A DNA stretch of 40,303 bases from an uncultured beta proteobacterium. GTDB lineage: Bacteria > Pseudomonadota > Gammaproteobacteria > Burkholderiales > Casimicrobiaceae. The notes below the pieces were generated by a model. That model saw nothing but the letters and a program-made list of their open reading frames with translations. It made no database searches and was not told where the DNA came from. The first letter of the stretch is position 1; each line of letters begins with the position of its first letter. Location: NCBI GenBank assembly GCA_903912485.1, contig CAIWHR010000329.1, positions 1 to 40,303 on the forward strand, read 5' to 3'. Position numbers and translations under genes: made by a program. Of this stretch, positions 10,946 through 39,622 are shown piece after piece.

Positions 10946-12022
10946 TCAACCGGGGCGGAACATCTCCCACTGCAGCACCGTGTCGGCGGGGACATCCCGC
11001 TCCAGCACGCGTCCGATGAGCTGCTCGAGGTGCTTCGGCGCAATGCCCGTCCCGGGCCGCTTGACCTCGAGGTCCTCGCTGCCGACCTGCGCTCCCCGCG
11101 GCAGGTCGCGCGCCGCCACCAGGCTGCGCCTCGCCTGCCGGCGCGCCTCCTCCTCGCAGCGGAGGACCGCCTTGCGGGAGGATCCGACGAGCCGGTCGAC
11201 CTCGGCGAACGCGCCGCGCAACTTCCTCAGGTCGTCCGGATCCATCGCGTGATAGTGATCGTTCCCCGGCAGCGCCTTGTCGAGCGTGAAGTGCTTTTCC
11301 ACGATGCGCGCGCCCAGCAGCCAGGCGGTCGGCAACAGGTTGTCGACAGGCGGCACGTGATCGCTGTAGCCGATGACGCAGTCGGGGAAGGCCGAACGCA
11401 GGTGGGTGATCGCGCCGAGGTTGGCGTCCTCCGGACGGCAGGGATACGACAGGACGCAGTGCAGCAGCGCGATCTCCCGGGCGCCCTCCCGCAGCAGCAC
11501 GCTCACGGCATCGTCGATCTCGCCGAGCGTCGAAGCGCCCGTCGAGAGCAGAACCGGCTTCCCGAAGCGCGCGCAGTGACGCAGGAGCGGCGTGTTGGTG
11601 AGGTCGGCCGAGGCGACCTTGAACGCGGGCATGAACTCGGCGAGAAAGTCCGCGTACCGCGTGTCGAACGGCGTGCTCATGAACGCGATCCCGCACGACT
11701 GCGCCCTGCGCGCCAGTTCACGGTACTGCGCCTCGCCGAACAGGTCGTGCCTGCGGAACAGTTCGTACTGCGAGCGGGTCGGCTCCTTGTCGGTGTCCCA
11801 GTATGCAGGGCTGTTCCTGGACGCCAGGCTGCCTGCCCGATACGACTGGAACTTGATCGCGTCGGCACCGGCAGCGGCGGCGGCGTCGACCATGCGCAGC
11901 GCGGTGTCCAGGCTGTTCTCGTGGTTCACCCCCGCCTCGGCGATGAGGTAGGGGCGATCGGACGGGAGCGTCAGGCCGCCGAAGGTCCGGGGAGTTCGCT
12001 CAAACACCGACCTTCCCGCCAT
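10946..12022 (-). CDS. neuB: N-acetylneuraminate (nonulosonate) synthase
   Basis: Cytoplasmic enzyme, 358 aa, that condenses phosphoenolpyruvate with a 6-carbon N-acetylamino sugar to make a sialic-acid-type nonulosonate. The N-terminal NeuB barrel is marked by YLIAEAGVNHENS and ADAIKFQSY, with FMSTPFD, KVASADLTN and LSTGAS in the expected order. A C-terminal SAF antifreeze-like domain covers about residues 295-356 (ARRSLVAARDLPRG, later KRPGTGI). The length fits the family. The start at 12022 overlaps the preceding glycosyltransferase gene by 23 bases. The exact product (Neu5Ac, legionaminate or pseudaminate) cannot be settled from this reading; no NeuC-type epimerase is in the window. Confidence 0.9.
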   Translation of the reverse strand: MAGRSVFERTPRTFGGLTLPSDRPYLIAEAGVNHENSLDTALRMVDAAAAAGADAIKFQSYRAGSLASRNSPAYWDTDKEPTRSQYELFRRHDLFGEAQYRELARRAQSCGIAFMSTPFDTRYADFLAEFMPAFKVASADLTNTPLLRHCARFGKPVLLSTGASTLGEIDDAVSVLLREGAREIALLHCVLSYPCRPEDANLGAITHLRSAFPDCVIGYSDHVPPVDNLLPTAWLLGARIVEKHFTLDKALPGNDHYHAMDPDDLRKLRGAFAEVDRLVGSSRKAVLRCEEEARRQARRSLVAARDLPRGAQVGSEDLEVKRPGTGIAPKHLEQLIGRVLERDVPADTVLQWEMFRPG

Positions 12023-12677
12023 GCTCCAGGCCGCCCGCCGCGACCTTCGCGGCGAGCTTTCTCCGGTACTGCCTGACCGCCTTCCGGTCGTTGGTCAGGT
12101 TGCCGCTGTGTCTGGTGTAGCGGTAGAGAGGGAGACGCACGTGGCCGACGTGAAACCGCTGCTCGAACCGCGCGCGGATCTCGCGGTCCTCCATCAGCAG
12201 CATCGAGGCGTCGTACAGTCCGATCTCGACCAGCGAGTCGAGCCGGAACATGATGCCGCAGGCGATCGGGTTCCGCCCGGCGTCGCAGCGCTTGGTGTGG
12301 CGCTCGAGATCGTCGACCTCGAAGTAGTCGCAGGCCACGGCTCCCCACTCCGGATTCATCGCCATGTGCAGGTGCTCCACGTAGATGAAGTCCTCGTGGA
12401 CGTAATCGTCCGAATCGAGGAACACGACGTAGCGGCCCCGGGCGTGCCTGGCGCCGGCGTTACGCGCGCTCGGGAGTCCCTGGTTTGCCGGCAGCAGGAT
12501 CGGCACGACGAGATCGCCGAAGTCGCCGATGATTCGCGGCGAGTTGTCACCGGAGCCGTCGTCGACCACCACCACCTCGAACTCGTCCTTGGGGAACCGC
12601 TGCGCGATCGCGCTGCGGATCGCCCGCCCGATGAAGCGCTCGCGGTTGTAGCAGGTGACAACGATGCTGACCTTCAT
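12000..12677 (-). CDS. Family 2 glycosyltransferase
   Basis: Short GT2 enzyme of 225 aa with the classical GT-A start MKVSIVVTCYNRERFI, the nucleotide-binding strand EVVVVDDGSGDNS, the NQGLPSARNAG helix and the metal-binding VFLDSDDYV around residues 86-94. An acceptor-side segment LLMEDREIRARF follows in the place of the usual ED catalytic motif. No membrane segments are seen. It sits third in a four-gene leftward operon, 10 bases after the CMP-sugar synthetase-like gene, and overlaps neuB. It should add one sugar to the surface glycan; donor and linkage are unknown. Confidence 0.9.
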   Translation of the reverse strand: MKVSIVVTCYNRERFIGRAIRSAIAQRFPKDEFEVVVVDDGSGDNSPRIIGDFGDLVVPILLPANQGLPSARNAGARHARGRYVVFLDSDDYVHEDFIYVEHLHMAMNPEWGAVACDYFEVDDLERHTKRCDAGRNPIACGIMFRLDSLVEIGLYDASMLLMEDREIRARFEQRFHVGHVRLPLYRYTRHSGNLTNDRKAVRQYRRKLAAKVAAGGLEHGGKVGV

Positions 12678-24875: not shown

Positions 24876-24943
24876 ACCTCCATTTCGAGCCGCGTCGCGG
24901 GGCTGGCGCAGGCGGCGTCGCCTGCGCCGGAAGATTGCCGTGA
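24872..24943 (+). other. Possible 23-codon bridging mini-ORF
   Basis: Starts with an ATG that overlaps the DUF115 gene stop (ATGA) and ends with a TGA that overlaps the GTG start of the next gene (GTGA). The peptide is Gly/Ala/Arg-rich and matches nothing known. It would carry ribosomes across the only gap in this part of the operon. Confidence 0.3.
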
Positions 24944-25614
24944 CGCGAGTCGCCGCCCTGGTCCCGATGCGCCACCACAGCCAGCGCGTGGCGGAAAAGA
25001 ACTACCGGCCGCTGGCCGGCCGTCCGCTCTACCACTGGATCGTCGAGAGCCTGCTGCAATGCCCGGAAATCGGCGAGGTCGTCGTCGACACCGACAGCCC
25101 GGTGATCGCGGCCGGCGTCCGTGCCGGCTTTCCCGGCGTGCGACTGATCCCGCGGCCGGAGCGGCTGGCCGGCGACGACGTCAGCATGAACGAGATCCTG
25201 CTGCACGACACGACGCTGGTCGACGCCGACATCTTCGTCCAGACGCACTGCACGAATCCGCTGCTCACGCCGGCGAGCATCGGGCGGGCGATCCGGACCT
25301 TCGTCGCCGCACGGCCGCAGCACGACTCGCTGTTCTCGGTCACGCGCCTGCAGACCCGTCTCTGGGACGCCGAAGGGCGTCCGATCAACCACGACCCCGC
25401 CGTCCTGCTGCAGACGCAGGATCTCCCGCCCGTGTTCGAGGAGAACTCCTGCCTCTACCTGTTCACCGCGGCCACGCTGCGCGAGCGCAGCAATCGCATC
25501 GGTGCGCGTCCGCTGACCTTCGAGCTCCCGCCCGGCGAGGCCTGCGACATCGACCAGGAGATCGACTTCCAGATCGCCGAGTTCCTGATGGAGCGCCGGC
25601 TGCGCCGGACGTGA
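24940..25614 (+). CDS. CMP-sugar (acylneuraminate) cytidylyltransferase-like protein
   Basis: Protein of 224 aa, of normal length for a NeuA/LegF/PseF-type enzyme. The nucleotide loop reads LVPMRHHSQRVAEKNYRPLAG: Arg and Lys-Asn are kept, but the usual Gly-Ser is His-Ser and the Pro before Lys-Asn is Glu. VVVDTDSPVI, FVQTHCTNPLLTP and CDIDQEIDFQIAE align with the STDDEEI, LQPTSPLR and DIDTPEDF elements. The MRHHSxRV variant is recognisable in a subgroup of CMP-sugar synthetase-like proteins often seen in glycan loci. The GTG start overlaps a preceding mini-ORF stop, and the stop overlaps the next GTG. It probably activates a different acid sugar from that of the NeuA at 21629. Confidence 0.78.
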   Translation: MTRVAALVPMRHHSQRVAEKNYRPLAGRPLYHWIVESLLQCPEIGEVVVDTDSPVIAAGVRAGFPGVRLIPRPERLAGDDVSMNEILLHDTTLVDADIFVQTHCTNPLLTPASIGRAIRTFVAARPQHDSLFSVTRLQTRLWDAEGRPINHDPAVLLQTQDLPPVFEENSCLYLFTAATLRERSNRIGARPLTFELPPGEACDIDQEIDFQIAEFLMERRLRRT

Positions 25615-27550: not shown

Positions 27551-27582
27551 CTATCATTTCCATATTCGTCAAATCATCTGTG
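27551..27582. promoter_or_regulatory. AT-rich promoter region of the ars operon, possible ArsR half-site
   Basis: A rare AT-rich island about 50-80 bases before the arsC start, lying between divergent genes. It includes ATATTCG (27562-27568), which resembles one arm of proteobacterial ArsR operators, but the second arm is poor. No clear -35/-10 pair could be fixed. Confidence 0.25.
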
Positions 27583-27630
27583 CTTCGAACGCAAGCATTG
27601 ACCGACGTTCCCCCCAGAGCCGCCATCACC

Positions 27631-28170
27631 GTGAACATCCTCTTTCTCTGCACCGGCAACTCCTGCCGCTCGATCCTCGCCGAAGCGACCTTCAATCACC
27701 TCGCGCCGCCCGGATGGCAGGCGATGAGCGCCGGCAGCCAGCCCGCCGGCCGCGTGCATCCGCGCTCGCTCGCGCTGCTCGCGCGCGAAGGCATTGCCAG
27801 CGAAGGCTATCGCAGCAAGTCCTGGGACAGCCTTCCCGCGACCCCGGACATCGTCGTCACGGTCTGTTCCGGCGCGGCGGGGGAAGCCTGCCCGGCCTAC
27901 CTGGGACCCGTGCTGCGCACGCACTGGGGGGTCGACGATCCCGCGCACGCCACGGGCAGCGACGCCGAGGTCGACGCGGCGTTCGCGGGCGCCTATCGCG
28001 TCCTTCGCGCCCGCATCGAAGCCTTCCTGGCGCTGCCGCTGGACGACCTGCAGCGCGACCGTGCCCGCCTGAAGGCCGAACTGGACCGCATCGGCACGCT
28101 GGCGAGCCCGCGACCCCCGGGCGGCCGGTCCGGCGCCGCGCACGACGTCACGGCGACGACCCATGAGTGA
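27631..28170 (+). CDS. arsC: Arsenate reductase of the low-molecular-weight phosphatase type
   Basis: Cytoplasmic arsenate reductase, 179 aa. The P-loop [10 protein letters not shown] sits at the very N-terminus, with Cys7 and Arg13 in the C-x5-R catalytic motif. A second pair of Cys in [14 protein letters not shown] corresponds to the redox cysteines of thioredoxin-coupled ArsC (Cys82 and Cys89 of S. aureus). [10 protein letters not shown] supplies the general-acid Asp region. The GTG at 27631 is chosen because the phosphatase fold begins there; an earlier in-frame GTG at 27580 would add 17 residues. It overlaps acr3 by eight bases. It makes As(III) from As(V) for export by Acr3. The C-terminal 25 residues are a disordered tail. 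Confidence 0.9.
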
Positions 28171-29209
28171 CCTGACCCGGAAGCTGTCGTTTCTCGACCG
28201 CTACCTGACCGTCTGGATCTTCGGCGCGATGGCGCTGGGGATCGGCCTCGGCTTCTTCGTGCCTGGGATCGAGGGCTTCATCAACCGCTTCAATGCCGGG
28301 ACGACCAACATTCCCATCGCCGCCGGCCTGATGCTGATGATGTACCCGCCGTTCGCCAAGGTCCGCTACGAGGAGCTGCCCGACGTGTTCCGCGACCGGA
28401 AGGTGCTGGGGCTGTCGCTGGTGCAGAACTGGATCGTCGGCCCGGTGCTGATGTTCGCGCTGGCGATCGTCTTCCTGCACGACAAGCCCGAGTACATGGT
28501 CGGCCTGATCATGATCGGGCTGGTCCGCTGCATCGCGATGGTGATCGTCTGGAACGAGCTCGCCAGGGGCTCGACCGAGTACGCGGCGGGGCTGGTCGCG
28601 TTCAACTCGATCTTCCAGGTGCTGTTCTTCAGCGTCTACGCATGGCTGTTCATCACGGTCCTGCCGCCGTGGTTCGGCCTGTCCGGATCGGTCGTCGACA
28701 TCTCGATCGGGCAGATCGCCGAGAGTGTCTTCATCTACCTCGGCATTCCCTGCCTTGCCGGCGTGCTGACGCGCGTGATCATGCTGCGCTTCGTGTCGAA
28801 GGAGTGGTATCACAGCCGTTTCGTGCCGAAGATCGGGCCGCTCACGCTCGTCGCGCTGCTGTTCACGATCGTCGTGATGTTCAGCCTCAAGGGCAAGCTC
28901 ATCGTCTCCATTCCGCTGGACGTGGTCAGGATCGCCATTCCGCTGCTGATCTACTTCGTCGTGATGTTCGTGTTCTCGTTCTTCATGAGCCGGCGCATGG
29001 GCGCCAACTACGAGAAGTGCGCCACGCTGTCGTTCACGGCGGCGAGCAACAACTTCGAGCTGGCGATCGCCGTGGCGGTGGCCGTCTACGGCATCAACTC
29101 CGGCGCGGCCTTCGCGGCGGTCATCGGACCGCTGGTCGAAGTTCCGGTGATGATCGGCCTCGTCAACGTGGCGCTGTTCTTTCAGCGACGGTATTTCGCC
29201 GTCGCCTGA
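28163..29209 (+). CDS. acr3: Acr3-family arsenite efflux permease
   Basis: Inner-membrane transporter of 348 aa with about ten hydrophobic segments. The strongly conserved family block [17 protein letters not shown] is present, with Cys123 at the place of the Cys required for arsenite transport in characterised Acr3 proteins. [11 protein letters not shown] and [20 protein letters not shown] (the conserved SNNFELAIA element of the BASS superfamily) follow as expected. It exports As(III) made by ArsC and possibly As(III) entering after ArrA activity. Start ATG lies inside the arsC end, so the two are co-translated. Confidence 0.95.
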
Positions 29210-29215
29210 CCCGCG

Positions 29216-29749
29216 ATGAAATGCCTGATGGCCGCCTGGGAGCGGCACCAAGCGGAATTGCGCGGCTGGCTGCGGTACCGTCTGGGCAGCGCCGTCGACG
29301 CCGACGACGTGCTGCAGGAGCTGTTCATCAAGGCCATGCGCCAGGGGGAACGGTTCTGCGCCATCGGCAACGCCCGCGCCTGGCTGTTCGAGGTGGCGCG
29401 CAATGCGGTCGCCGACCGGTTGCGTCTGCAGCGGGAGCTGGTCGAGCTTCCCGCCGATCTTGCCGCCATCGTGGAAGAGCCCGCGACCGTCGACCGTCTG
29501 GTCGGTTGCCTGCCGCGCGTGCTGTCCGAACTCTCCGCCGACGACCGCGAGGCCATCACGCTGTGCGATCTGGAGGGGATGGCGCAGGACGAGTTTGCGC
29601 GGCGCAAGGGCCTGACGCTGCCGGGAGCCAAGTCCCGCATCCAGCGCGCCCGCAGGCGGCTCAAGGAGCGGATGACGCTGGGCTGTCAGGTGCGTGTCGA
29701 CGCGACCGGGAACGTCAGCGACTTCGTGCCGCGTCCGCCACTTACCTGA
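29216..29749 (+). CDS. sigZ: ECF-type RNA polymerase sigma factor, SigZ-like
   Basis: Protein of 177 aa. Sigma region 2 is marked by DADDVLQELFIKAM and ARAWLFEVARNAVADRLR, and region 4 by LSELSADDREAITLCDLEG and LPGAKSRIQRARRRLKERM. The tail CQVRVDATGNVSDFVPRP, with Cys and Asp-x-x-Gly-Asn-Val-x-Asp, is typical of the SigZ group. It starts six bases after acr3, so it is part of the ars operon. No anti-sigma factor gene is adjacent. What it transcribes is not visible from the window; a link to thiol or metalloid stress is inferred. Confidence 0.82.
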   Translation: MKCLMAAWERHQAELRGWLRYRLGSAVDADDVLQELFIKAMRQGERFCAIGNARAWLFEVARNAVADRLRLQRELVELPADLAAIVEEPATVDRLVGCLPRVLSELSADDREAITLCDLEGMAQDEFARRKGLTLPGAKSRIQRARRRLKERMTLGCQVRVDATGNVSDFVPRPPLT

Positions 29750-29912: not shown

Positions 29913-30959
29913 ATGAGCAGCGCCCATGCCGTGCTGAAACACTGGCCCAACCGGCGGCCGCTGTCATTCCTGCTCCTGGCCGCAGCGGCATGGTTCGGCC
30001 TGTACCAGACGCTGAGCCCGGCGGCCGAAGCGCTGGTGGCCGCGCTGCCGGTCGACAGGGACAGCCGCCTGGGTGGCGCCCTGCAGTTCTTCCTCTACGA
30101 CACGCCCAAGGTGCTGCTGCTGCTTACCGGCATCGTGTTCGTGATGGGCATGATCAATTCGCACTTCACGCCGGAGCGCACCCGCGCCATGCTGGCCGGA
30201 CGCACCGAGGGAGCCGCCAACGTCATGGCGGCGAGCCTGGGGATCGTCACCCCGTTCTGTTCCTGCTCGGCGGTGCCGCTGTTCATCGGCTTCGTTCAGG
30301 CCGGCGTGCCGCTGGGCGTGACGTTCTCGTTCCTGATCTCGGCGCCGATGGTCAACGAGGTGGCGCTCACGCTGCTGTTCGGGCTGTTCGGCTGGAAGGT
30401 CGCCCTGATCTACCTCGGTCTGGGGCTGTCGGTGGCGATCGCGGCGGGCTGGGTGATCGGCCGGCTGAAGATGGAGGCGCATCTCGAAGACTGGGTGCGC
30501 GCGATGCCGCACACGACCGCCGCGACGGCCGACGACAGGCTTTCGCTGGGCGGGCGCATCGACGCCGGCTTCGCCTCGGTGCGCGAGATCGTCGGCAAGG
30601 TGTGGCCGTACATCCTGGCAGGCATCGCCGTCGGCGCCGGCATCCACGGTTACGTGCCGGCAGATTTCATGGCCAGCTTCATGGGCAAGGATGTCTGGTG
30701 GGCGGTGCCGCTGGCCGTGATCATCGGCGTGCCGATGTACACCAACGCGGCGGGCGTCATCCCCATCGTGCAGGCGCTGCTGGCCAAGGGTGCGGCGCTG
30801 GGCACGGTGCTCGCGTTCATGATGAGCGTGATCGCCCTCTCGCTGCCGGAAATGGTGATCCTGCGCAAGGTGCTCAAGATGCGGCTGATCGCGACCTTTG
30901 TCGGCGTGGTCGCCAGCGGCATCCTGCTGGTCGGCTTCGTGTTCAACGCGATTCTCTGA
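29913..30959 (+). CDS. YraQ/UPF0718 permease (ArsP-like), copy 1
   Basis: Inner-membrane protein of 348 aa with about eight membrane segments. The family signature TPFCSCSAVPLFIGF (Cys116 and Cys118) is followed by GVPLGVTFSFLISAPMVNEVAL. The second half repeats the pattern with GVPMYTNAAGVIPIVQALL and FMMSVIALSLPEMVIL. ArsP, a member of this family, exports trivalent organoarsenicals, and the CxC pair is a likely metalloid site. The ATG at 29913 follows AGGGAG. It is 163 bases after sigZ, so a separate promoter is possible. Substrate (methylarsenite, arsenite or another soft metal) is inferred from the neighbours. Confidence 0.8.
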   Translation: MSSAHAVLKHWPNRRPLSFLLLAAAAWFGLYQTLSPAAEALVAALPVDRDSRLGGALQFFLYDTPKVLLLLTGIVFVMGMINSHFTPERTRAMLAGRTEGAANVMAASLGIVTPFCSCSAVPLFIGFVQAGVPLGVTFSFLISAPMVNEVALTLLFGLFGWKVALIYLGLGLSVAIAAGWVIGRLKMEAHLEDWVRAMPHTTAATADDRLSLGGRIDAGFASVREIVGKVWPYILAGIAVGAGIHGYVPADFMASFMGKDVWWAVPLAVIIGVPMYTNAAGVIPIVQALLAKGAALGTVLAFMMSVIALSLPEMVILRKVLKMRLIATFVGVVASGILLVGFVFNAIL

Positions 30960-31099: not shown

Positions 31100-32353
31100 A
31101 TGTTGATCGAAATCGCTCGTTGGCTCCTGAATCGGGGGTCGGTGCTGCTGATCGCGGCGTCGGCGCTGGCGTTGCCCGGCGCCTCGTGGGGCCAAGCCGC
31201 GCTCGCGTCGCCTCCGGATGCGGCTCGGTCCGCGCCGCAGCCCGTCGATGTCGAGGTCTTCGTGCGCGAGGGCTGTCCGCATTGCGCCGCGGCCGAGGCC
31301 TTCCTCGTCACGCTCGGCAAGGAACGCCCGGAGCTCAGGATCTCGATACGCGACGTCGGCAGCGAGCCGTCTGCGCTCGCCAGGCTGAAGGAGATAGCGA
31401 ACGCCCAGGCGACCGGCAGCGTGCGCGTGCCGGCCATTTTCCTGCGCGGACAGCTCCTCGTGGGCTTCTCGTCCGAGGCGGGCACCGACAAGCTCGTTCG
31501 GGCGGCGTTGGCGGCGAGGCCGGTGGCGGCAACCTCCACGCCCGCGGCGGAAGGCGCGGCCGCCTGCGACGCGGAGGAAAGCCTGTCGTGCCAGGCCGGC
31601 CCGGGGGCCGAGCCCGGCGCGGAGCAATTCGCGGTCACGATCTTCGGCCGCGCGATTGCGGTCGACGACGTCGGCATGCCGCTGTTCACTCTGGTCATGG
31701 GGTTGCTGGACGGGTTCAATCCCTGCTCGATGTGGGTGCTGATCCTGATGATCTCGCTGCTCGCGCCGCTCAACAATCGACCGCGAATGCTGGCGATCGC
31801 CGGCACTTTCGTCCTCATCGAGGGCATCGCCTACTACGCGTTCATGGCAGCCTGGCTCAACCTGTTCCTGTTCATCGGGCTTTCCCGTGCGTCGGAACTG
31901 GTCATCGCCGGCATCGCGATTTTCGCCGGAGCGATCAACCTGAAGGATTTCTGGGCATTCGGCTGGGGGATTTCGCTATCGATCCCGAACGCCGCCAAGC
32001 CCGGCATCTACGCCCGGATGCGGGCAATCCTGCACGCCGACAACCTGACGGCGGCGCTGATCGCCACCGTCATCCTGGCGGTTCTGGTGCAACTGGTCGA
32101 GTTGCTCTGCACGTCCGGGTTCCCGGCGCTTTTCACGCGGATCCTGACGCTGAAGCAGATGGAAGGTGCGAGCTACTACGGCTATCTGCTGCTCTACAAC
32201 GCCGCCTACATGCTGGACGACGTCGTCGTGCTCGCGATCGGGGTGATCACGCTGAGCAAGCGCCGGTTGCAGGAGAAGGAAGGTCGCTGGCTGAAATTCA
32301 TCAGCGGTCTGGCGATGGTTTGCCTCGGCCTGTACCTGATCTTTCCGGGATGA
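31100..32353 (+). CDS. Thioredoxin-like domain fused to CcdA-type membrane protein
   Basis: Protein of 417 aa. A signal-peptide-like N-terminus (hydrophobic stretch at about 13-31) leads to a thioredoxin/glutaredoxin-like domain with CPHC at 59-62 and a cis-Pro region VRVPAIFLRGQ. A Cys-containing linker (residues about 140-180) joins it to six hydrophobic segments. These contain MGLLDGFNPCSMWVLIL and a later VELLCTSGFPALF, giving one Cys in each half as in CcdA/DsbD electron carriers. The layout would carry electrons from cytoplasmic thioredoxin to an outward-facing CxxC domain. The ATG at 31100 follows GGAGG closely. It lies between two YraQ-type permeases and 15 bases before the second, so it probably maintains thiols in this arsenic module. 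Confidence 0.78.
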   Translation: MLIEIARWLLNRGSVLLIAASALALPGASWGQAALASPPDAARSAPQPVDVEVFVREGCPHCAAAEAFLVTLGKERPELRISIRDVGSEPSALARLKEIANAQATGSVRVPAIFLRGQLLVGFSSEAGTDKLVRAALAARPVAATSTPAAEGAAACDAEESLSCQAGPGAEPGAEQFAVTIFGRAIAVDDVGMPLFTLVMGLLDGFNPCSMWVLILMISLLAPLNNRPRMLAIAGTFVLIEGIAYYAFMAAWLNLFLFIGLSRASELVIAGIAIFAGAINLKDFWAFGWGISLSIPNAAKPGIYARMRAILHADNLTAALIATVILAVLVQLVELLCTSGFPALFTRILTLKQMEGASYYGYLLLYNAAYMLDDVVVLAIGVITLSKRRLQEKEGRWLKFISGLAMVCLGLYLIFPG

Positions 32354-32368: not shown

Positions 32369-33814
32369 ATGAACACTTTCCTGCACCTGATGAATGGCGG
32401 AGCCGGCAATCTCGCCGCCTACCTCGCGGCGCACGTGCTGCTGTGCCTGCTGCCGGCATTCTTCATTGCGGGCGCGATGGCGGCGCTGATCCCCAGGGCC
32501 GGCATCACCCGCTGGCTGGGCCGCAGCGCGCCGTACCGCGTGTCGTATCCGGCCGCGGCGGCCGCCGGTTCGCTGCTGGCGGTGTGCTCCTGCACCATCG
32601 TGCCGCTGTTCGCCGGCATCTACAAGAAGGGCGCCGGACTCGGGCCGGCGATCACTTTCCTCTTCTTCGCGCCGGCCGGAAACGTGCTCGCCCTCGCCTA
32701 CACCGGCAGCATCCTCGGCGCGGAGTTCGCGTTCGCGCGCCTGCTGCTGTGCCTGCTGTTCGGCGTCGGCATCGGCATGCTGATGGCCGCGCTGTTCTGG
32801 CGCGACGACGCCGGGCACGACCAGCAGACCGATGCCTTGTTCGCCGGGGAGGCCAGCCTCGGCCGCGCCGCCGCCGGCGTGCTGGTGTCGCTGGCCGCGG
32901 TGTTGATCGCCGGCACGCTCAAGGTCTCGCTGCTGACCGCCACCGTCGGCGCGGTCGTGCTGCCGCTGCCGTGGGCGGAGGCCTGGCAGGCCACGCTGTC
33001 CGGCTGGGTGCCCTTCGACGCCGCCAGGGGCGAGGAGGGCGTGAGCGTGCAGGGCTCGCTGCTGATCGCGCTGCTGCTGCTGATCGGCCTGGCCGCGTGG
33101 AAGGGTCTGGAGAACATCGTCGAGGGCGCGAATCGCTGGACCTGGATCGCCATGGGTCTGACCGCCGCGACGCTGCTGCTCGCGGCGGTGCGGCTCACGC
33201 CGCGAGCCGGCGGCCTGGAATTTGCGCTCACCGGGCGTGCGCTCGCGGTCGGTCTGGCGCTGTGGGCCGTGCTGCACCACGCGCGCCGCCTCGACGGCGA
33301 CGCCTGGCGGGCCTGGCTGTGGGAATCCTGGCGCTTCGTCAAGCAGATCTTCGCGCTGCTGGTCGTGGGCGTATTCGCCGTGGGTGTCATCCGGCAGCTG
33401 ATCCAGCCCGAGTGGATCCGGAGCCTTGCCGGCAGCAATACGCTGCTCGCCAACGCGGCCGCCGTGGCGTTCGGCGTGTTCATGTACTTCCCGACGCTGG
33501 TCGAGGTGCCCGTCGCACGCATGTTCCTCGACCTGGGCATGCACCGCGGACCGCTGCTGGCGTACCTGATGGCCGACCCCGAACTGAGCCTGCAGAGCAT
33601 CCTGATGGTGGCCGCCGTGATCGGCAGGCGCAGGACCTTTGCCTACGTCGGGCTGGTGGCGGTGTTCAGCACCGTCGCCGGACTGCTGTACGGCGCCTGG
33701 GTGGACGGCGTGAACCCGGCCTGGATCGCGCTCGGGCTGGCCGCCTTCCTGGGCGCGCTGGCGGCGCTGCTCGCGTGGACGCCGGGGCGCCGGGCGGCGC
33801 CGAATCGAGCCTGA
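32369..33814 (+). CDS. YraQ/UPF0718 permease, copy 2 (long form)
   Basis: Inner-membrane protein of 481 aa with about ten or more hydrophobic segments. The signature AVCSCTIVPLFAGIYKKGAG (Cys73 and Cys75) is followed by GPAITFLFFAPAGNVLAL. The second half has FGVFMYFPTLVEVPVARMFLD and the C-terminus ends in a short basic tail. It is longer than copy 1 because of extra segments between the halves (residues about 200-310). It is followed 24 bases later by a small CxxC thioredoxin, a pairing often seen for this permease type. Export of an arsenical or of a thiol-bound metalloid is inferred. Confidence 0.78.
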   Translation: MNTFLHLMNGGAGNLAAYLAAHVLLCLLPAFFIAGAMAALIPRAGITRWLGRSAPYRVSYPAAAAAGSLLAVCSCTIVPLFAGIYKKGAGLGPAITFLFFAPAGNVLALAYTGSILGAEFAFARLLLCLLFGVGIGMLMAALFWRDDAGHDQQTDALFAGEASLGRAAAGVLVSLAAVLIAGTLKVSLLTATVGAVVLPLPWAEAWQATLSGWVPFDAARGEEGVSVQGSLLIALLLLIGLAAWKGLENIVEGANRWTWIAMGLTAATLLLAAVRLTPRAGGLEFALTGRALAVGLALWAVLHHARRLDGDAWRAWLWESWRFVKQIFALLVVGVFAVGVIRQLIQPEWIRSLAGSNTLLANAAAVAFGVFMYFPTLVEVPVARMFLDLGMHRGPLLAYLMADPELSLQSILMVAAVIGRRRTFAYVGLVAVFSTVAGLLYGAWVDGVNPAWIALGLAAFLGALAALLAWTPGRRAAPNRA

Positions 33815-33838: not shown

Positions 33839-34075
33839 ATGAAGACGGTGAAGATCCTCGGATCCGGATGCGCCAACTGCAGGAAGCTCGAAGCCGTCGC
33901 GCGCGAAGCCGCGGCCGGCGCCGGCATCGAGGCGGAGTTCGTCAAGGTCACCGACATGCAGGCGATCATGGCCTACGACCTGCTCTCGACGCCGGGCCTG
34001 GTGATCGACGGGAAACTGGTGAGCAGCGGCCGCATTCCGACGCAGGCCGAGATCCGGGAGTGGATGGCGGCGTGA
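33839..34075 (+). CDS. Small CxxC thioredoxin (redox-active disulfide protein 2-like)
   Basis: Cytoplasmic protein of 78 aa with a minimal thioredoxin fold. It starts MKTVKILGSGCANCRKLE, giving the active-site C11-A-N-C14, and has the cis-Pro loop STPGLVIDGKLVSSG near residues 50-64. The ATG follows an excellent Shine-Dalgarno (AAGGAG). Last gene of the rightward ars operon. Proteins of this type often accompany YraQ permeases and ArsR regulators; it may hand metalloid or electrons to the permease. Confidence 0.85.
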   Translation: MKTVKILGSGCANCRKLEAVAREAAAGAGIEAEFVKVTDMQAIMAYDLLSTPGLVIDGKLVSSGRIPTQAEIREWMAA

Positions 34076-34171: not shown

Positions 34172-34804
34172 TCAATGGCCTGCGCGCAGCCTTTCCGACG
34201 CGACGAACCGGCTCGTGAGTTCGGCCAGCTCGCGGTAGAACGCCGTTTCCGCGCCGGCCTTCACCGCGGTCGTGAACGGGCCGGCCCACGCGCCCAGGTG
34301 TTCGGCCAGGAACCGGCGGCGCAGCGCGGCCATCGCCTCGAGTGCCTCGAGGTCGCCGTTGCGCAGGGCTTCGGTCTCGCGAAAGATCAGCAGGTAGAGG
34401 AATTCGAGTTCGGCGGCGATGTGGTCGGGCAGGTCGCGAAAGCCTTCGTCGATCTCGAATCCGCCCTCTGCGTAGAGGTGCTGGACCGCCATCGTCGACT
34501 CCTGCATCAGTCCCTGCCGGTCGCCCTGCCACACCGACCCGTAGGGCTTGGCGCGCATGTCCAGCGGACCGAGAAACAGGCGCGTGTAGTCGACCAGAAG
34601 ATCCTGCAGCTTCTCCGCCGCGAACGCCTCGCCCAGTTGCTGCGCGCGAACCGCGAAATCCGCGTCGATGCGCGCCGCCGCCGCCGCCATCGAGTCGAAC
34701 AGCTTCTCCTCGGCAAACTCCGGCGCCGGCTCGTAGTAGCACGCAGCGAGGAGCCGGCAGAGGTCGGCCCGTGCCCCGTCGTGTTCCAGATTGTCCTGCG
34801 CCAT
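34172..34804 (-). CDS. arrD: TorD-family molybdoenzyme maturation chaperone (ArrD-like)
   Basis: Cytoplasmic all-helical chaperone of 210 aa. It starts RADLCRLLAACYYEPAPEF and has the family core LVDYTRLFLGPLDMRAKPYGSVW (residues about 72-94), followed by a helical second half (ELEFLYLLIFRETEAL). TorD-family proteins bind the Tat signal of a partner molybdoenzyme and hold it until the cofactor is loaded. The neighbour ArrA is an obvious client, since it carries a twin-arginine signal. The ATG at 34804 follows GGGAGG. It is third in the arr cluster but separated from arrB by a strong terminator-like hairpin, so its level may be set by read-through. Confidence 0.87.
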   Translation of the reverse strand: MAQDNLEHDGARADLCRLLAACYYEPAPEFAEEKLFDSMAAAAARIDADFAVRAQQLGEAFAAEKLQDLLVDYTRLFLGPLDMRAKPYGSVWQGDRQGLMQESTMAVQHLYAEGGFEIDEGFRDLPDHIAAELEFLYLLIFRETEALRNGDLEALEAMAALRRRFLAEHLGAWAGPFTTAVKAGAETAFYRELAELTSRFVASERLRAGH

Positions 34805-34815
34805 CGCGCCTCCCG

Positions 34816-34850
34816 AAAAATGAAAAAGGGGGCGGGGTCACCCCGCCCCC
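34816..34850 (-). terminator. Strong rho-independent terminator between arrB and arrD
   Basis: On the minus strand, a perfect 10-bp G/C stem (34828-34837 with 34841-34850) closes a 3-base loop. It is followed directly by five T, then CA, then five more T (34816-34827). The hairpin lies 26 bases after the arrB stop and ends 11 bases before the arrD start. Confidence 0.85.
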
Positions 34851-34876
34851 AGGCTGCTTCGGCGTGCGAGGGCCGT

Positions 34877-35650
34877 CTAGCCGCGCGCGCTGTACTTGCC
34901 GACGTAGCGCACGTTCGGCCGCGTGCCCTTGTCCTCCTTGAGGACGACCGACTTCTGCGCCTTCAGCACCCTGGCGATCTCGGCGTTCGGATCGTCCTGG
35001 TCACCGAAGATCCGCGCATGGGCCGGGCAGGCTTCCACGCACGCCGGTTGCAGGCCCTTGCTGGTGCGGTGATGACAGAAAGTGCACTTCTCGACCACGC
35101 CGGCCTTGCGCACCGGATCGACGTCGCCGGCGATGAAAGCGTTCTTCATCGGCGGATTCGCACCGGCGGCCTTCGCCGTCGCCGCGCCGGTCGCGGTGCA
35201 GCCCGCGATCATCGGCGTGTCGTCCGCCCAGCGCGGCTGCGTCGATTCGCCGAACGCGTTGAAGCTGATGACGCTGTACGTTTCGCCGTCGAGGCTGGTC
35301 GTGTTGAGTTCGACGTTGCTGTACGGGCACGCGTTCTGGCAGGCACGGCAGCCGATGCAGGTCTCGTCGTCATGCATGGTGATGCCTTCGGGCGTCTTGA
35401 ACATCGCCTTCGGCGTCACCGGACACGCCTCGACACAGGGCGCATTGCTGCAGTGGTTGCACAGCACCGGCATCACCCAGTGCGTCGTGGCCGGAAAAGT
35501 CCCTTCGGACTTCATCAGGAAATCGGCCCAGTTGTGGCTCTGGCCGCCAGCGCGGTCACGCGTATTGTTCTCGGCCTTGCATGCAAAAGCACAGGCACCG
35601 CAACCCACGCACCGCTGCAGGTCGATGACCATTCCAAGTCTTGCCATCAT
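34877..35650 (-). CDS. arrB: Respiratory arsenate reductase iron-sulfur subunit
   Basis: Electron-transfer subunit of 257 aa with four [4Fe-4S] binding groups. The first is C14-x2-C17-x2-C20-x3-C24, followed by CNHCSNAPCVEACP, CIGCRACQNACPY and a split CTFCHHR plus CVEACPAHAR group. This is the DmsB/NrfC/ArrB pattern. It has no signal peptide, as expected for a subunit carried out with ArrA through the Tat system. Two ATGs stand together (35650 and 35647); GGAG is better spaced for the second. It lies 24 bases after arrA. It would pass electrons from the quinol side to the molybdenum centre of ArrA. No NrfD-type ArrC anchor is present. Confidence 0.9.
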   Translation of the reverse strand: MMARLGMVIDLQRCVGCGACAFACKAENNTRDRAGGQSHNWADFLMKSEGTFPATTHWVMPVLCNHCSNAPCVEACPVTPKAMFKTPEGITMHDDETCIGCRACQNACPYSNVELNTTSLDGETYSVISFNAFGESTQPRWADDTPMIAGCTATGAATAKAAGANPPMKNAFIAGDVDPVRKAGVVEKCTFCHHRTSKGLQPACVEACPAHARIFGDQDDPNAEIARVLKAQKSVVLKEDKGTRPNVRYVGKYSARG

Positions 35651-35674
35651 TGCTCTCCGTTAGCGTAGGTTGGG

Positions 35675-38230
35675 TCAGGCTTTCTGGACGCGGACGCCGG
35701 TGAATCCGCCGTTGCGCGCCGTGGCGCCGCTCAGCCGATCGTAGTCGTCCACCAGGATGTCGTTGTTGTTGCCGCCGCGCGGCAGCGCCTTGGCGTAATC
35801 CGCCGCGGCGATGCGGCCGTAGGCCCAGTGGCCCTGGCCGTAGCACTTGGCGACGGTGCCCTGGCGCACGCCTTCCCAGAGCTTCAATCTGGTGACGATG
35901 GCTCCCGTGGTCGACGTGACCCTGACGCTGTCGCCGGACTTCAGGCCGAGCTTCGCGCCGTCGGCCGGGTTCATCTTCAGCACGTCGTCCCAGCTGATGT
36001 CGCCCGGATCGACCTTCTTGAATTCCTGGTACCACGGCGTGTTCTGCGAGCGCCCCTCGCGGTTGAGCCGCGACTTGTAGTCGATGAAGGCGAACGGATA
36101 TTCGTCGACGCTGCCGTGCCGCTTCGGCGGCTCGTAGTGCGGGACGAACGCCACCTCGCCGCGCGCGACGTAGCCGCAGACGGTGAGGATGTCGTCCGGC
36201 GTCGTCTCGTACTTCTTGGCGTGCGCGGCGAGCCCCTTCTTCAGCGTCTCGCTGTAGAACTCGAATTTCTTGGTCTCGGTCGCGAACTTGCCGCCCCAGC
36301 CCTTCTTGTAGCTGTACTTGGCGCCGGCCCAAATGCCCTTCTTGCGGAAGTCGGCCCAGCCGGCGAGCGGCGCATCGCCCTTCAGCGGCTCCTTGGGCTT
36401 CCACAGCGTGGCGCTGGTGATCTTGGCGGCGATCTCCATGAACTCGAATTCGTTGGTCGGCGTCTTGCCGGTTTCGGGGTCCTTGAACTCCTTCGAGTAG
36501 TAGTCGAACAGGTTGGGGAAGCCCTTCGCCTTGAACTTGGCGGCGAGCAGCCACATCACCTCGTTCTCCTCCTGCTTGACATCCCACAGGCGCTTCGCGG
36601 CCGGCTGCTGGATCGAGGCGTAGCCGTAGCAGTTGCCCATGTTGCTGACGACCGACATCCCTTCGCTGGAGTTGTACGTCGCCGGCAGCACGATGTCGGC
36701 GAACTGCGTCATTTCCGACGCGTTGGTCACCATGTGCGCGAAGAACGGCAGCTTGGCCAGCGCCTTGTCCCAGCGGCCGGCGCCGGTGCACGAGAAGTTG
36801 AAGTTGTTCCACGAGGCGAGCAGCACCTTGACCGCACCGGGGTCCTTCAGCATCGCGTTGGCGATGTTGTTGGTCACCACGCCGCTGCCGGGATTGGCGT
36901 TCATCATCGCCGGCATGTCCTTGGCGCCGCGACCGTCGATCTTCTTGTGCTTGCTGTAGCCTTTGGCGATCTCGTCGACGTAGGCGTCGGACTTGGGGAA
37001 CGCGGCGAGCGGCACGCTGGAGCTCTGCAGCACGCCGCCTTCGACGTCGATCGATCCCAGGAGGCCGTTCAGCGCGTGGACGACCATCGCCGTGTACGTG
37101 CCGCGCGGGTTCATCGCCACTCCGGGACCCATCCAGATCCCGACCTTGGGTGCGGCCTTCGCCATCATCCTGGTCACCCGCAGGATCTGCGCCGCCGGGA
37201 TCAGCGTCTCCTGCTCGGCCCAGGCCGGCGTGCGGTCCTTGAGCTCGATGTTCCACCACTTGACGAGTCCGTAGGTCTCCTTCTCGGCGAAGGCGGCCTC
37301 GTCGACGGCCTTGCCGGCCACGAACAGGTTCTTGCCGTCCTTGAAGTCGCCGACGAACTCCCTGCTCCACAGGCCCTCGGTCAGCAGCACGTGGGCGATG
37401 GCGCCCGCCAGCGCGCCGTCGGTGCCCGGCTTGATCGGCAGCCACTCCTGCGCCTTGGCCGCGGTATTGGACAGGCGCGGGTCGACGCAGATCACTGCGC
37501 CCTTGGCCAGCAGGTCGCCGAAGAAGTGGATGACGTTCGGCACCATCCGGTTCGATGCCAGCGGGTCGGTGCCCCAGGCCACCACGCACTGCATGTTCGC
37601 AAGGTCGTAGTCGCGGTAGCCGAAGAACCCCTGCGTCAGGCCCGGCCCCATCTTCTCGGCCTCGGCGCAGATCGCACTGTGCGAGAAGTAGTTGGTCGTG
37701 CCGTAGATCTTCGGCAGCGTGCCGTACAGGAGCTCGGTCGACGTCGACGAATAGCGGCCGCGGATGTAGCAGAACTTGTGCGCCTCGTCGGCCTTGCGCA
37801 GCTCCAGCATCTTGTCGGCGACGGTGTCCAGCGCCTCGTCCCAGGTGATGGGCACCCACTTCGGGTCGACGCCGCGGCCCTTCAACGGGTTGGTCCGCTT
37901 CATCGGCTGCTTGACCCGGTCGGGGTCGTAGGTCTGTTGCGGGATGAGGTGACCGCGCGGGCAGCAGTGGCCGTGGTTGGTCTTCGACAGCTGGTTGCCG
38001 CGCACGCGCACGGCACGCCCTTCCTCGACGAAAATCTCGATCGCGCACCACTGGGTGCAGCCCTGGCAGGTCGTCGCCACCCATTCGCCGGCGGCGGGGC
38101 CGGCGGGCTTCGCCTTGCGCACCGCCATGGCGCTCGTGACCGGGGTGGTTGCCTGCGTCGCGCATCCGGCAGCGATCATGGCGGCCGTGGCACAGGACGC
38201 TTGAATGAACGCCCGTCTTGTCAGTCTCAT
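35675..38230 (-). CDS. arrA: Respiratory arsenate reductase catalytic subunit
   Basis: Periplasmic molybdopterin enzyme of 851 aa that reduces arsenate to arsenite as terminal electron acceptor. It starts with a twin-arginine signal (TRRAFIQ at 4-10). The N-terminal cluster site is C55-x2-C58-x3-C62-x27-C90, the spacing described for ArrA. FCYIRGRYSSTST holds the RGRY motif at 157-160 that marks ArrA; the related arsenite oxidase ArxA has a GRGWG-type motif there. SHSAICAEAEKMGPG, VAWGTDPLASN and the C-terminal molybdopterin-binding GHWAYGR region complete the DMSO-reductase family layout. The start follows GGGAG with an 8-base spacer. The signal ends near AAGC, which could also be a weak lipobox. 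Gene order arrA-arrB-arrD and the neighbouring ars genes support the assignment. Confidence 0.92.
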   Translation of the reverse strand: MRLTRRAFIQASCATAAMIAAGCATQATTPVTSAMAVRKAKPAGPAAGEWVATTCQGCTQWCAIEIFVEEGRAVRVRGNQLSKTNHGHCCPRGHLIPQQTYDPDRVKQPMKRTNPLKGRGVDPKWVPITWDEALDTVADKMLELRKADEAHKFCYIRGRYSSTSTELLYGTLPKIYGTTNYFSHSAICAEAEKMGPGLTQGFFGYRDYDLANMQCVVAWGTDPLASNRMVPNVIHFFGDLLAKGAVICVDPRLSNTAAKAQEWLPIKPGTDGALAGAIAHVLLTEGLWSREFVGDFKDGKNLFVAGKAVDEAAFAEKETYGLVKWWNIELKDRTPAWAEQETLIPAAQILRVTRMMAKAAPKVGIWMGPGVAMNPRGTYTAMVVHALNGLLGSIDVEGGVLQSSSVPLAAFPKSDAYVDEIAKGYSKHKKIDGRGAKDMPAMMNANPGSGVVTNNIANAMLKDPGAVKVLLASWNNFNFSCTGAGRWDKALAKLPFFAHMVTNASEMTQFADIVLPATYNSSEGMSVVSNMGNCYGYASIQQPAAKRLWDVKQEENEVMWLLAAKFKAKGFPNLFDYYSKEFKDPETGKTPTNEFEFMEIAAKITSATLWKPKEPLKGDAPLAGWADFRKKGIWAGAKYSYKKGWGGKFATETKKFEFYSETLKKGLAAHAKKYETTPDDILTVCGYVARGEVAFVPHYEPPKRHGSVDEYPFAFIDYKSRLNREGRSQNTPWYQEFKKVDPGDISWDDVLKMNPADGAKLGLKSGDSVRVTSTTGAIVTRLKLWEGVRQGTVAKCYGQGHWAYGRIAAADYAKALPRGGNNNDILVDDYDRLSGATARNGGFTGVRVQKA

Positions 38231-38303: not shown

Positions 38304-38318
38304 GGGTCAATTTGACCC
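38304..38318. promoter_or_regulatory. Palindrome GGGTCAATTTGACCC, candidate operator
   Basis: Perfect 7-bp inverted repeat around one central T in the region between divergent arrA and the arsR-arsM fusion. The half-site GGGTCAAT occurs again at 38345-38352, within the arsR-arsM promoter spacer. A shared regulator acting on both promoters is plausible. Confidence 0.5.
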
Positions 38319-38337: not shown

Positions 38338-38365
38338 TTGACAGGGGTCAATGGTGTCGTATAGT
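38338..38365 (+). promoter_or_regulatory. Near-consensus sigma-70 promoter of the arsR-arsM fusion
   Basis: TTGACA (38338-38343, perfect -35) and TATAGT (38360-38365, five of six -10 bases) are 16 bases apart. The expected transcript start, about 38372, falls only a few bases before the ATG at 38375, so the mRNA would have almost no leader. Confidence 0.65.
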
Positions 38366-38376
38366 TGCAAAACTAT
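38361..38376. promoter_or_regulatory. Inverted repeat ATAGTTGCAAAACTAT, candidate ArsR operator
   Basis: Perfect 6-bp arms with a 4-base spacer. It overlaps the -10 element, the expected transcript start and the first two bases of the ATG. A repressor bound here would block its own promoter. Confidence 0.5.
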
Positions 38377-39622
38377 GGAAACCAAGTCCGCATTGGCAGC
38401 CCTGGCGGCGCTCGCGCAGGACACCCGTCTGGCGGTCTTCCGCCTGCTGGTCGAGCACGCCCCGGAGGGCCTGCCCGCCGGACAGATTGCCGGGCAGCTC
38501 GGCGTTCCGCCGGCTTCGCTTTCGTTTCACCTGAAGGAACTGACCCGCGCGGGCCTCATCGATCCATTGCAGGACGGGCGCTTCGTCTGGTACAGCGCCA
38601 ATCTGGACGCGATGAACGGTCTGGTCGGCTATCTCACCGAGAATTGCTGCCGCGCCAGTGCGGTCTGCGACTCCCGATGTGCGCCCAAGCCGAAGCCGAT
38701 CGTCGCGGTCAAGGCACCGCCGCCGAAGCGCCGGCGTTCGGCGCAGGGCGCTGCAGCGACGCAGGAGGTATCGACCATGACTGCACCAGCCGGCGTGAAG
38801 GAAGTCGTCCGCGAGAAATACGGTCAGGCGGCGTTGCGCGTGAAGACGGGCCAGAGCGGCTGCTGCGGCAGCGCGCCCGGCGCGCTCGACTGCTGCGACC
38901 CGATCACCTCCAACCTGTACGACGCCGGCCAGGCCGGCGAAGTCCCCGACGATGCGATGAAGGCATCGCTGGGCTGCGGCAACCCGACCGCGCTCGCGGA
39001 ACTGAAGCCGGGCGAAGTCGTGCTCGATCTCGGCTCGGGCGGCGGCATCGACGTGCTGCTCTCGGCCAGGCGCGTCGGGCCGACCGGCAAAGCCTACGGC
39101 CTCGACATGACCGACGAGATGCTGGCGCTGGCCGAGCAGAACCGGGTCAGGAGCGGTCTCGCCAACGTCAGCTTCCTGAAGGGCGAGATCGAGCACATTC
39201 CGCTGCCCGCCGATGCGGTCGACGTGATCATCTCGAACTGCGTGATCAACCTGTCCGGCGACAAGGACCAGGTGCTGCGCGAAGCGTTCCGCGTGCTCAG
39301 GCCCGGCGGGCGCCTCGCCGTCTCCGACGTCGTCGTCCGCGGCGAGGTCCCCGCGGCGATCCGCAGGAGCATGGAGCTCTGGGTAGGTTGCATCGCCGGC
39401 GCGTTGGCGGAGGACGACTACCGGGACAAGCTCGCGCGAGCGGGATTCACCGGCATCGAGGTCGAAGTCACGCGCGTCTACGGCGTCGAGGACGCGCGCA
39501 CGTTCCTCGCGGCCGAAGGGCTCGATGTCGACGCTGCCGCGGCCGAGATCGACGGCAGGTTCGTCAGCGCCTTCATCCGGGCCGTGAAGCCGCTGTCCTG
39601 CTGCGCCCGGACCTGCTGCTGA
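38375..39622 (+). CDS. arsM: ArsR-ArsM fusion: arsenite-responsive repressor plus arsenite methyltransferase
   Basis: Protein of 415 aa. Residues about 1-100 form an ArsR/SmtB winged helix ([16 protein letters not shown], then [18 protein letters not shown] as recognition helix). Cys91, Cys92 and Cys98 have exactly the CC-x5-C spacing of the As(III) site of Acidithiobacillus ferrooxidans ArsR. A Pro/Lys-rich linker of about 30 residues leads to a full Ars[17 protein letters not shown] (Cys201), [16 protein letters not shown] for SAM binding, [12 protein letters not shown] (Cys289) and WVGCIAGAL (Cys339). These three Cys match the conserved arsenic-binding residues of ArsM. The end is Cys-rich (SCCARTCC). 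The ATG at 38375 begins the repressor fold; an ATG at 38351 lies inside the promoter. ArsM can also be started alone at 38777. It would convert As(III) to methylated arsenicals and regulate its own supply. Confidence 0.9.
38763..38779 (+). promoter_or_regulatory. Internal Shine-Dalgarno and ATG for a separate ArsM product
   Basis: AGGAGG (38763-38768) lies eight bases before an in-frame ATG (38777-38779). Starting here gives a 281-aa protein, the normal length and start point of free-standing ArsM. This is a far better ribosome site than the one at the 5' end of the fused frame. Confidence 0.65.

Follow-up and report, generated by a model that had tools for sequence, protein, structure and literature searches.

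The window analysed here is an entire contig of 40,303 bp (G000:C329) from the draft genome of an uncultured beta proteobacterium of the Casimicrobiaceae (5.27 Mb, 644 contigs, 96% complete). It ends 2.1 kb past the start of arrA, the first of three genes on the minus strand that, judged from sequence, very probably enable arsenate respiration. The arrA gene (35675..38230) encodes a molybdopterin catalytic subunit of 851 amino acids with a twin-arginine (Tat) leader, a 4Fe-4S site and the motifs RGRY and SHSxxC. It is followed 25 bp downstream by arrB (34877..35650), encoding an iron-sulfur subunit of 257 amino acids with four clusters, and then by arrD, or torD (34172..34804), for a TorD-type chaperone of 210 amino acids. 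An earlier examination of the bare letters, the sequence-only reading, had placed arrA, arrB and torD in this order at 34172-38230, which agrees exactly with the reading frames. Its naming of ArrB and the chaperone was borne out by profile matches: ArrB contains Fer4 domains and has NF041715 as its best NCBIfam model (242 bits, under the cut-off of 450), and ArrD matched PF02613 with 110 bits. A terminator-like hairpin lies in the gap between arrB and arrD, and upstream of arrA a gene is transcribed divergently in which an ArsR-type regulator is in frame with an arsenite methyltransferase (arsRM, 38351..39622, plus strand).

The assignment of the large subunit as the ArrA of a respiratory arsenate reductase is supported by its motifs, its relatives and its phylogeny. 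RGRY at residue 157 and the spacing C-x2-C-x3-C-x27-C beginning at residue 55, both pointed out in the sequence-only reading, were confirmed in the translation, which opens with the Tat leader MRLTRRAFIQ. The SHSxxC site is retained, as SHSAIC aligns with SHSSVC of the Shewanella sp. ANA-3 ArrA; the (R/K)GRY motif together with this site is cited as a criterion for ArrA (PMC6549141). RGRY was also found in every other arrA locus readable in that frame. The NCBIfam ArrA model NF041714 was the top model by far. The nearest relative of solved structure was the ANA-3 ArrA (PDB 6cz7, E 5e-276, 51% identity), followed by the thiosulfate/polysulfide reductase (Psr/Phs) of Thermus (E 9e-44, 29% identity to 2vpw). 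A maximum-likelihood tree was rooted on the Thermus Psr protein and included few reference ArrA proteins. The smaller protein set was preferred because a first tree, with two distant paralogues from the same genome, had very long branches. The window protein, the ANA-3 ArrA and an ArrA from a cluster that does carry arrC (G310) formed one clade (support 99/97), separate from a clade of three ArxA proteins (100/99). Placement relative to ArrA, ArxA and Psr was the test that the earlier reading itself had named for refuting its assignment, and the protein fell inside the ArrA clade.

Arr-type enzymes are reversible in vitro. Since narG is present in the genome as well, the enzyme might be thought to run oxidatively, as an anaerobic arsenite oxidase of the ArxA type coupled to nitrate respiration. 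This is highly improbable, as the protein has RGRY where ArxA has XGRGWG (YGRGWG or FGRGWG in the alignment), shares 30-36% identity with the three ArxA proteins (including a plasmid copy from Cereibacter azotoformans), lies outside their clade with high support and is accompanied neither by arxB2 nor by arxC/NrfD. The arxABC order and its NrfD-type ArxC are also absent. An ArxA identity was rejected on motif, sequence identity and tree. A Psr/Phs identity was likewise discarded on motif, tree and the 29% identity to 2vpw, and no psrC-type subunit (PF03916) was present. That the main substrate is another oxyanion or a sulfur compound (polysulfide, thiosulfate, antimonate) could be argued from the shared superfamily and from the mere 51% identity to a tested ArrA. 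However, the match to the Thermus Psr/Phs was far weaker than that to ArrA, the arsenate-site motif is kept and arsenic genes flank the cluster on both sides, which makes another main substrate very unlikely.

The sequence-only reading had reported that the window holds no NrfD-type quinol subunit, the membrane anchor called ArrC in other clusters. This was confirmed, and PF03916 (NrfD) gave no match across the whole genome either, in a search that was positive in all four controls (E. coli and three others). A search with PF14589 also found nothing in the genome, and is uninformative because none of the controls matched. Relatives were collected from contigs as 80 arrA loci of 67-82% identity, belonging to Betaproteobacteria, other Pseudomonadota, Geobacteraceae and Nitrospirota. 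ArrC was not seen in 50 of the 52 loci whose downstream sequence extends for 3.5 kb or more; among the exceptions, L089 is an ArrC-bearing outgroup with its arrC upstream of arrA. Candidate arrC genes were rejected in L038, the second exception, where a weak match (E 2e-5) lies beside another gene set on the opposite strand, and in L047, where the match belongs to an arx cluster. Clusters of the Arr clade are described as arrCAB or arrAB, CymA standing in for ArrC in Shewanella (PMC2500031). An island of arr and resistance genes is known from Geobacter sp. OR-1 (PMC4319506), and 370 GTDB assemblies, 35 of them Burkholderiaceae and 19 Rhodocyclaceae, were reported to carry RGRY-positive arrAB with arrDE (PMC11283718). 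The rarity that had been implied for the lack of ArrC and for the mixture of respiration and detoxification in one island was thus not upheld, both being the usual, already published state of the clade. Since enzymes of this group normally lack the anchor, there is for the most part nothing unusual about the cluster.

For the link to the quinol pool a CymA-type route is likely, and is our best guess. The search for a CymA-like quinol oxidiser that the sequence-only reading had proposed for the rest of the genome yielded one strong member of the NapC/NirT/CymA family, a tetrahaem cytochrome of 200 amino acids with four CxxCH motifs on contig C90 (PF03264, 251 bits). The order on this contig is an MtrB_PioB porin, the CymA/NapC-type tetrahaem cytochrome, a dihaem cytochrome and then nqr-like genes, the last recognized by eye. 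One relative (L067) has two CymA-like genes some 5 kb downstream of its arrA. The genome also encodes further molybdoenzymes, among them NarG, a formate dehydrogenase and homologues that are less clear. SoxB, as a marker of sulfur oxidation as an electron source, had no match in the genome, a weak negative as no control rose above the cut-off either. As a separate observation, the row of porin, tetrahaem and dihaem cytochrome genes on C90 (L088, 11434-14054) is a possible system for extracellular electron transfer or iron oxidation.

The hairpin between arrB and arrD (34828..34850, minus strand, read from 34850 to 34828) has a 10-bp G-C stem, GGGGGCGGGG-TGA-CCCCGCCCCC, followed by TTTTT. In a scan that permits G-U pairs and one mismatch, 27 of 68 loci had a similar hairpin within the 110 bases following arrB. 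Shuffled sequences gave 1.25 on average (largest 3), and two stretches from within arrB each gave none in the 68 loci. The stems vary and yet stay paired across loci (GGGGGCGG, GGGGGCCGG, GGGCGAGG, GGGAGCCA and TAGATGGGACTATA), but counts of such pairs prove little, as the sequences, being related, are not independent, and paired stems are what the scan selects. The comparison with shuffled sequences and with the interior of arrB is the firmer part of the evidence. Most likely, the hairpin reduces transcription into the chaperone gene arrD.

The arsRM frame comprises 1272 bp and 423 amino acids, with a helix-turn-helix domain at residues 16-90 and the ArsM domain at 147-416; its likely start is at 38375. 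The ArsR part ends in CC-x5-C, which we take to resemble ArsR of the Acidithiobacillus type, and the ArsM part retains the GCG, SNC and VGC cysteines present in relatives. Instead of encoding one protein, it could be a read-through frame in which ArsM has its own start, or in which the stop codon of arsR was lost by a sequencing error. The internal ATG at 38777 is preceded by AGGAGG, the fusion occurs in just 1 of 83 arr loci, that of the window, and in three loci of other Burkholderiales (L103, L104, L111) arsR and arsM are adjacent in the same frame with a stop between them. Against this stand the 426 codons without a stop and an ArsR-methyltransferase fusion with both activities reported in Brevundimonas sp. 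M20 (PMC10190100). We give the read-through explanation a little less than an even chance. A separate ArsM may also be made next to the fusion, because of the AGGAGG before the internal ATG and the stop-separated arrangement in Burkholderiales.

The arsRM gene, divergent from arrA over a short promoter region, occupies the position where about half of the relatives carry arrX-S-R. Of the 56 loci with enough sequence, 29 have ArrX-like genes no more than 5 kb upstream, mostly together with a histidine kinase and a response regulator. The window holds no arr two-component system, as had been noted from the letters, and a search of the genome for ArrX turned up no orthologue, the best hit being a partial match of 28% (E 1.6e-4). 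The divergent region contains the palindrome GGGTCAATTTGACCC (38304..38318, no strand), a third half-site AGGGGTCAA at 38343-38351 and, on the arsRM side, a sigma-70-like site (11/12). The palindrome has a single perfect match in the 5.27-Mb genome; a wider regulon was rejected as the one further site has a mismatch and lies within a coding frame. As an ArsR operator the palindrome is only a suggestion.

Taken together, it is quite likely that the window encodes a respiratory arsenate reductase with two subunits, a member of the arrC-less clade found in Betaproteobacteria, Geobacteraceae and Nitrospirota, with electrons supplied by a CymA-type protein, control by ArsRM and attenuation by the hairpin. 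The TorD-type ArrD would prepare ArrA, which would be exported with ArrB by the Tat system. Electrons from quinol would pass through the CymA/NapC-type tetrahaem cytochrome to the clusters of ArrB and on to the molybdenum centre of ArrA, where periplasmic arsenate would be reduced to arsenite, a direction of catalysis that we infer. Arsenite entering the cell could then dislodge the ArsR domain from the divergent promoter that arrABD and arsRM share and so raise the expression of both, while Acr3 would export arsenite and the ArsM domain would methylate it. Because of the hairpin after arrB, less chaperone than enzyme would be expressed. A more far-reaching proposal, in which one bifunctional ArsRM, sensing arsenite at the shared promoter and methylating it, replaces ArrX-S-R and the conserved hairpin determines, throughout the clade, how much chaperone is made relative to enzyme, is rather doubtful.

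Several points weigh against this scheme. The window ArrA scored 1044 bits with NF041714, below the equivalog cut-off of 1600, which is a naming threshold and not a biological feature. The model gave 1704 bits for ANA-3, 1155 for the ArrC-bearing G310 protein, 1001 for a Desulfuromonadaceae protein and 438 for ArxA; as the whole subclade tested falls below the cut-off, this was not used to exclude the window protein. The draft genome could lack genes. The CymA-like gene on C90 is unlinked and may serve the adjoining MtrB-type porin system or another pathway. Finally, the palindrome was noticed post hoc and was absent from the relatives then compared, for which reasons its operator role is put forward no more firmly than above.

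Compared with known systems, the cluster shares arrAB without arrC, a TorD-type arrD, RGRY and acr3/arsR in the island with the Arr of Geobacter sp. OR-1 and of Burkholderiaceae and Rhodocyclaceae (PMC4319506, PMC11283718). It differs from these in having ArsR joined to ArsM in a gene divergent from arrA, and in the ars gene order, which is arsC-acr3-sigZ-yraQ-grx-yraQ-trx. ANA-3 ArrAB also has two subunits without ArrC, belongs to the same clade and uses a CymA-type route, as would the window enzyme, but falls outside the subclade to which the window protein belongs. ArxA of C. azotoformans pORIO3 (L091) shares the superfamily and the surrounding arsenic genes; it is 30% identical, with XGRGWG, arxB2 and an NrfD subunit. 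ArsRM of Brevundimonas sp. M20 is a single protein with an ArsR and an arsenite methyltransferase part, as the window frame is read to be. The M20 gene, however, measures 960 bp and heads a met operon, its product binding CTTTATATAAAG, whereas the window gene is longer, is divergent from arrA and has another palindrome. Clusters with arrAB only, CymA as a substitute and islands of arr and ars genes are already published; less ordinary here are two features, the ArsR-ArsM fusion at the arr promoter and the hairpin in the gap after arrB, both of them modest clues to how the pathway may be switched and kept in balance. The genome adds a further Burkholderiales member to the arrC-less arsenate respirers, a group that reportedly predominates in the reduction of arsenate in mine tailings (PMC11283718). 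Automated naming may undercount the subclade, because the NF041714 cut-off misses the Betaproteobacteria and Desulfuromonadaceae-type ArrA tested (about 1000 bits).

The detoxification genes that the sequence-only reading had placed beside arr were found as arsC, acr3 and two YraQ permeases in an island of 12 kb, from arsC (27580) to the ArsM part of arsRM (39622); what it had called arsM is a single frame with arsR. In ANA-3, too, the arr genes lie beside ars genes. All the following genes are on the plus strand. The arsC gene (27580..28170, likely start near 27631) encodes an arsenate reductase of the low-molecular-weight phosphatase fold, thioredoxin type (PF01451, and TIGR02691 below its cut-off), and is followed by the arsenite efflux transporter acr3 (28163..29209; TIGR00832, 445 bits, above the cut-off of 283). 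Next come a SigZ-like extracytoplasmic function (ECF) sigma factor (29216..29749; TIGR02959, 156 bits, just under its cut-off, and TIGR02937 above its own) and a YraQ/ArsP_1 permease (29913..30959; PF03773, 245 bits). A glutaredoxin-domain membrane protein (31100..32353; PF00462) and a second YraQ/ArsP_1 permease (32369..33814; PF03773, 212 bits) precede a small thioredoxin-like protein of 78 amino acids, seen as a reading frame convergent with arrD (33839..34075). Homologues of the latter occur near arr in 10 other loci. The SigZ-like factor recurs in arr/ars neighbourhoods, mostly by a YraQ permease (L019, L022, L029, L030, L041, L043, L058 and L090).

Within the family, a full-length ArrA homologue near 1,000 bits was present in 2 of 64 genomes, the source genome and G044, which carries yraQ2, sigZ and acr3 beside arr in the same order as the window. 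The match in a third genome of the family (G020) carries the ArxA motif, and the three other genomes of the genus had no homologue at the threshold of about 1,000 bits. This patchy distribution suggests gain or loss. Among the other loci, a contig of a Rhodocyclaceae metagenome-assembled genome (L047) bears arrABD and an arx-type cluster, its ArxA with GRGWG, within 12 kb, so that enzymes of reduction and oxidation adjoin. Two metagenome-assembled genomes each gave two arrA loci from the same whole-genome shotgun project (L002/L005 and L063/L065), so arr may be present twice in some species. Elsewhere in the window, genes for a NeuB-type synthase, a glycosyltransferase and a cytidylyltransferase (10946-12677 and 24940-25614) mark a surface glycan region of the nonulosonic-acid type.
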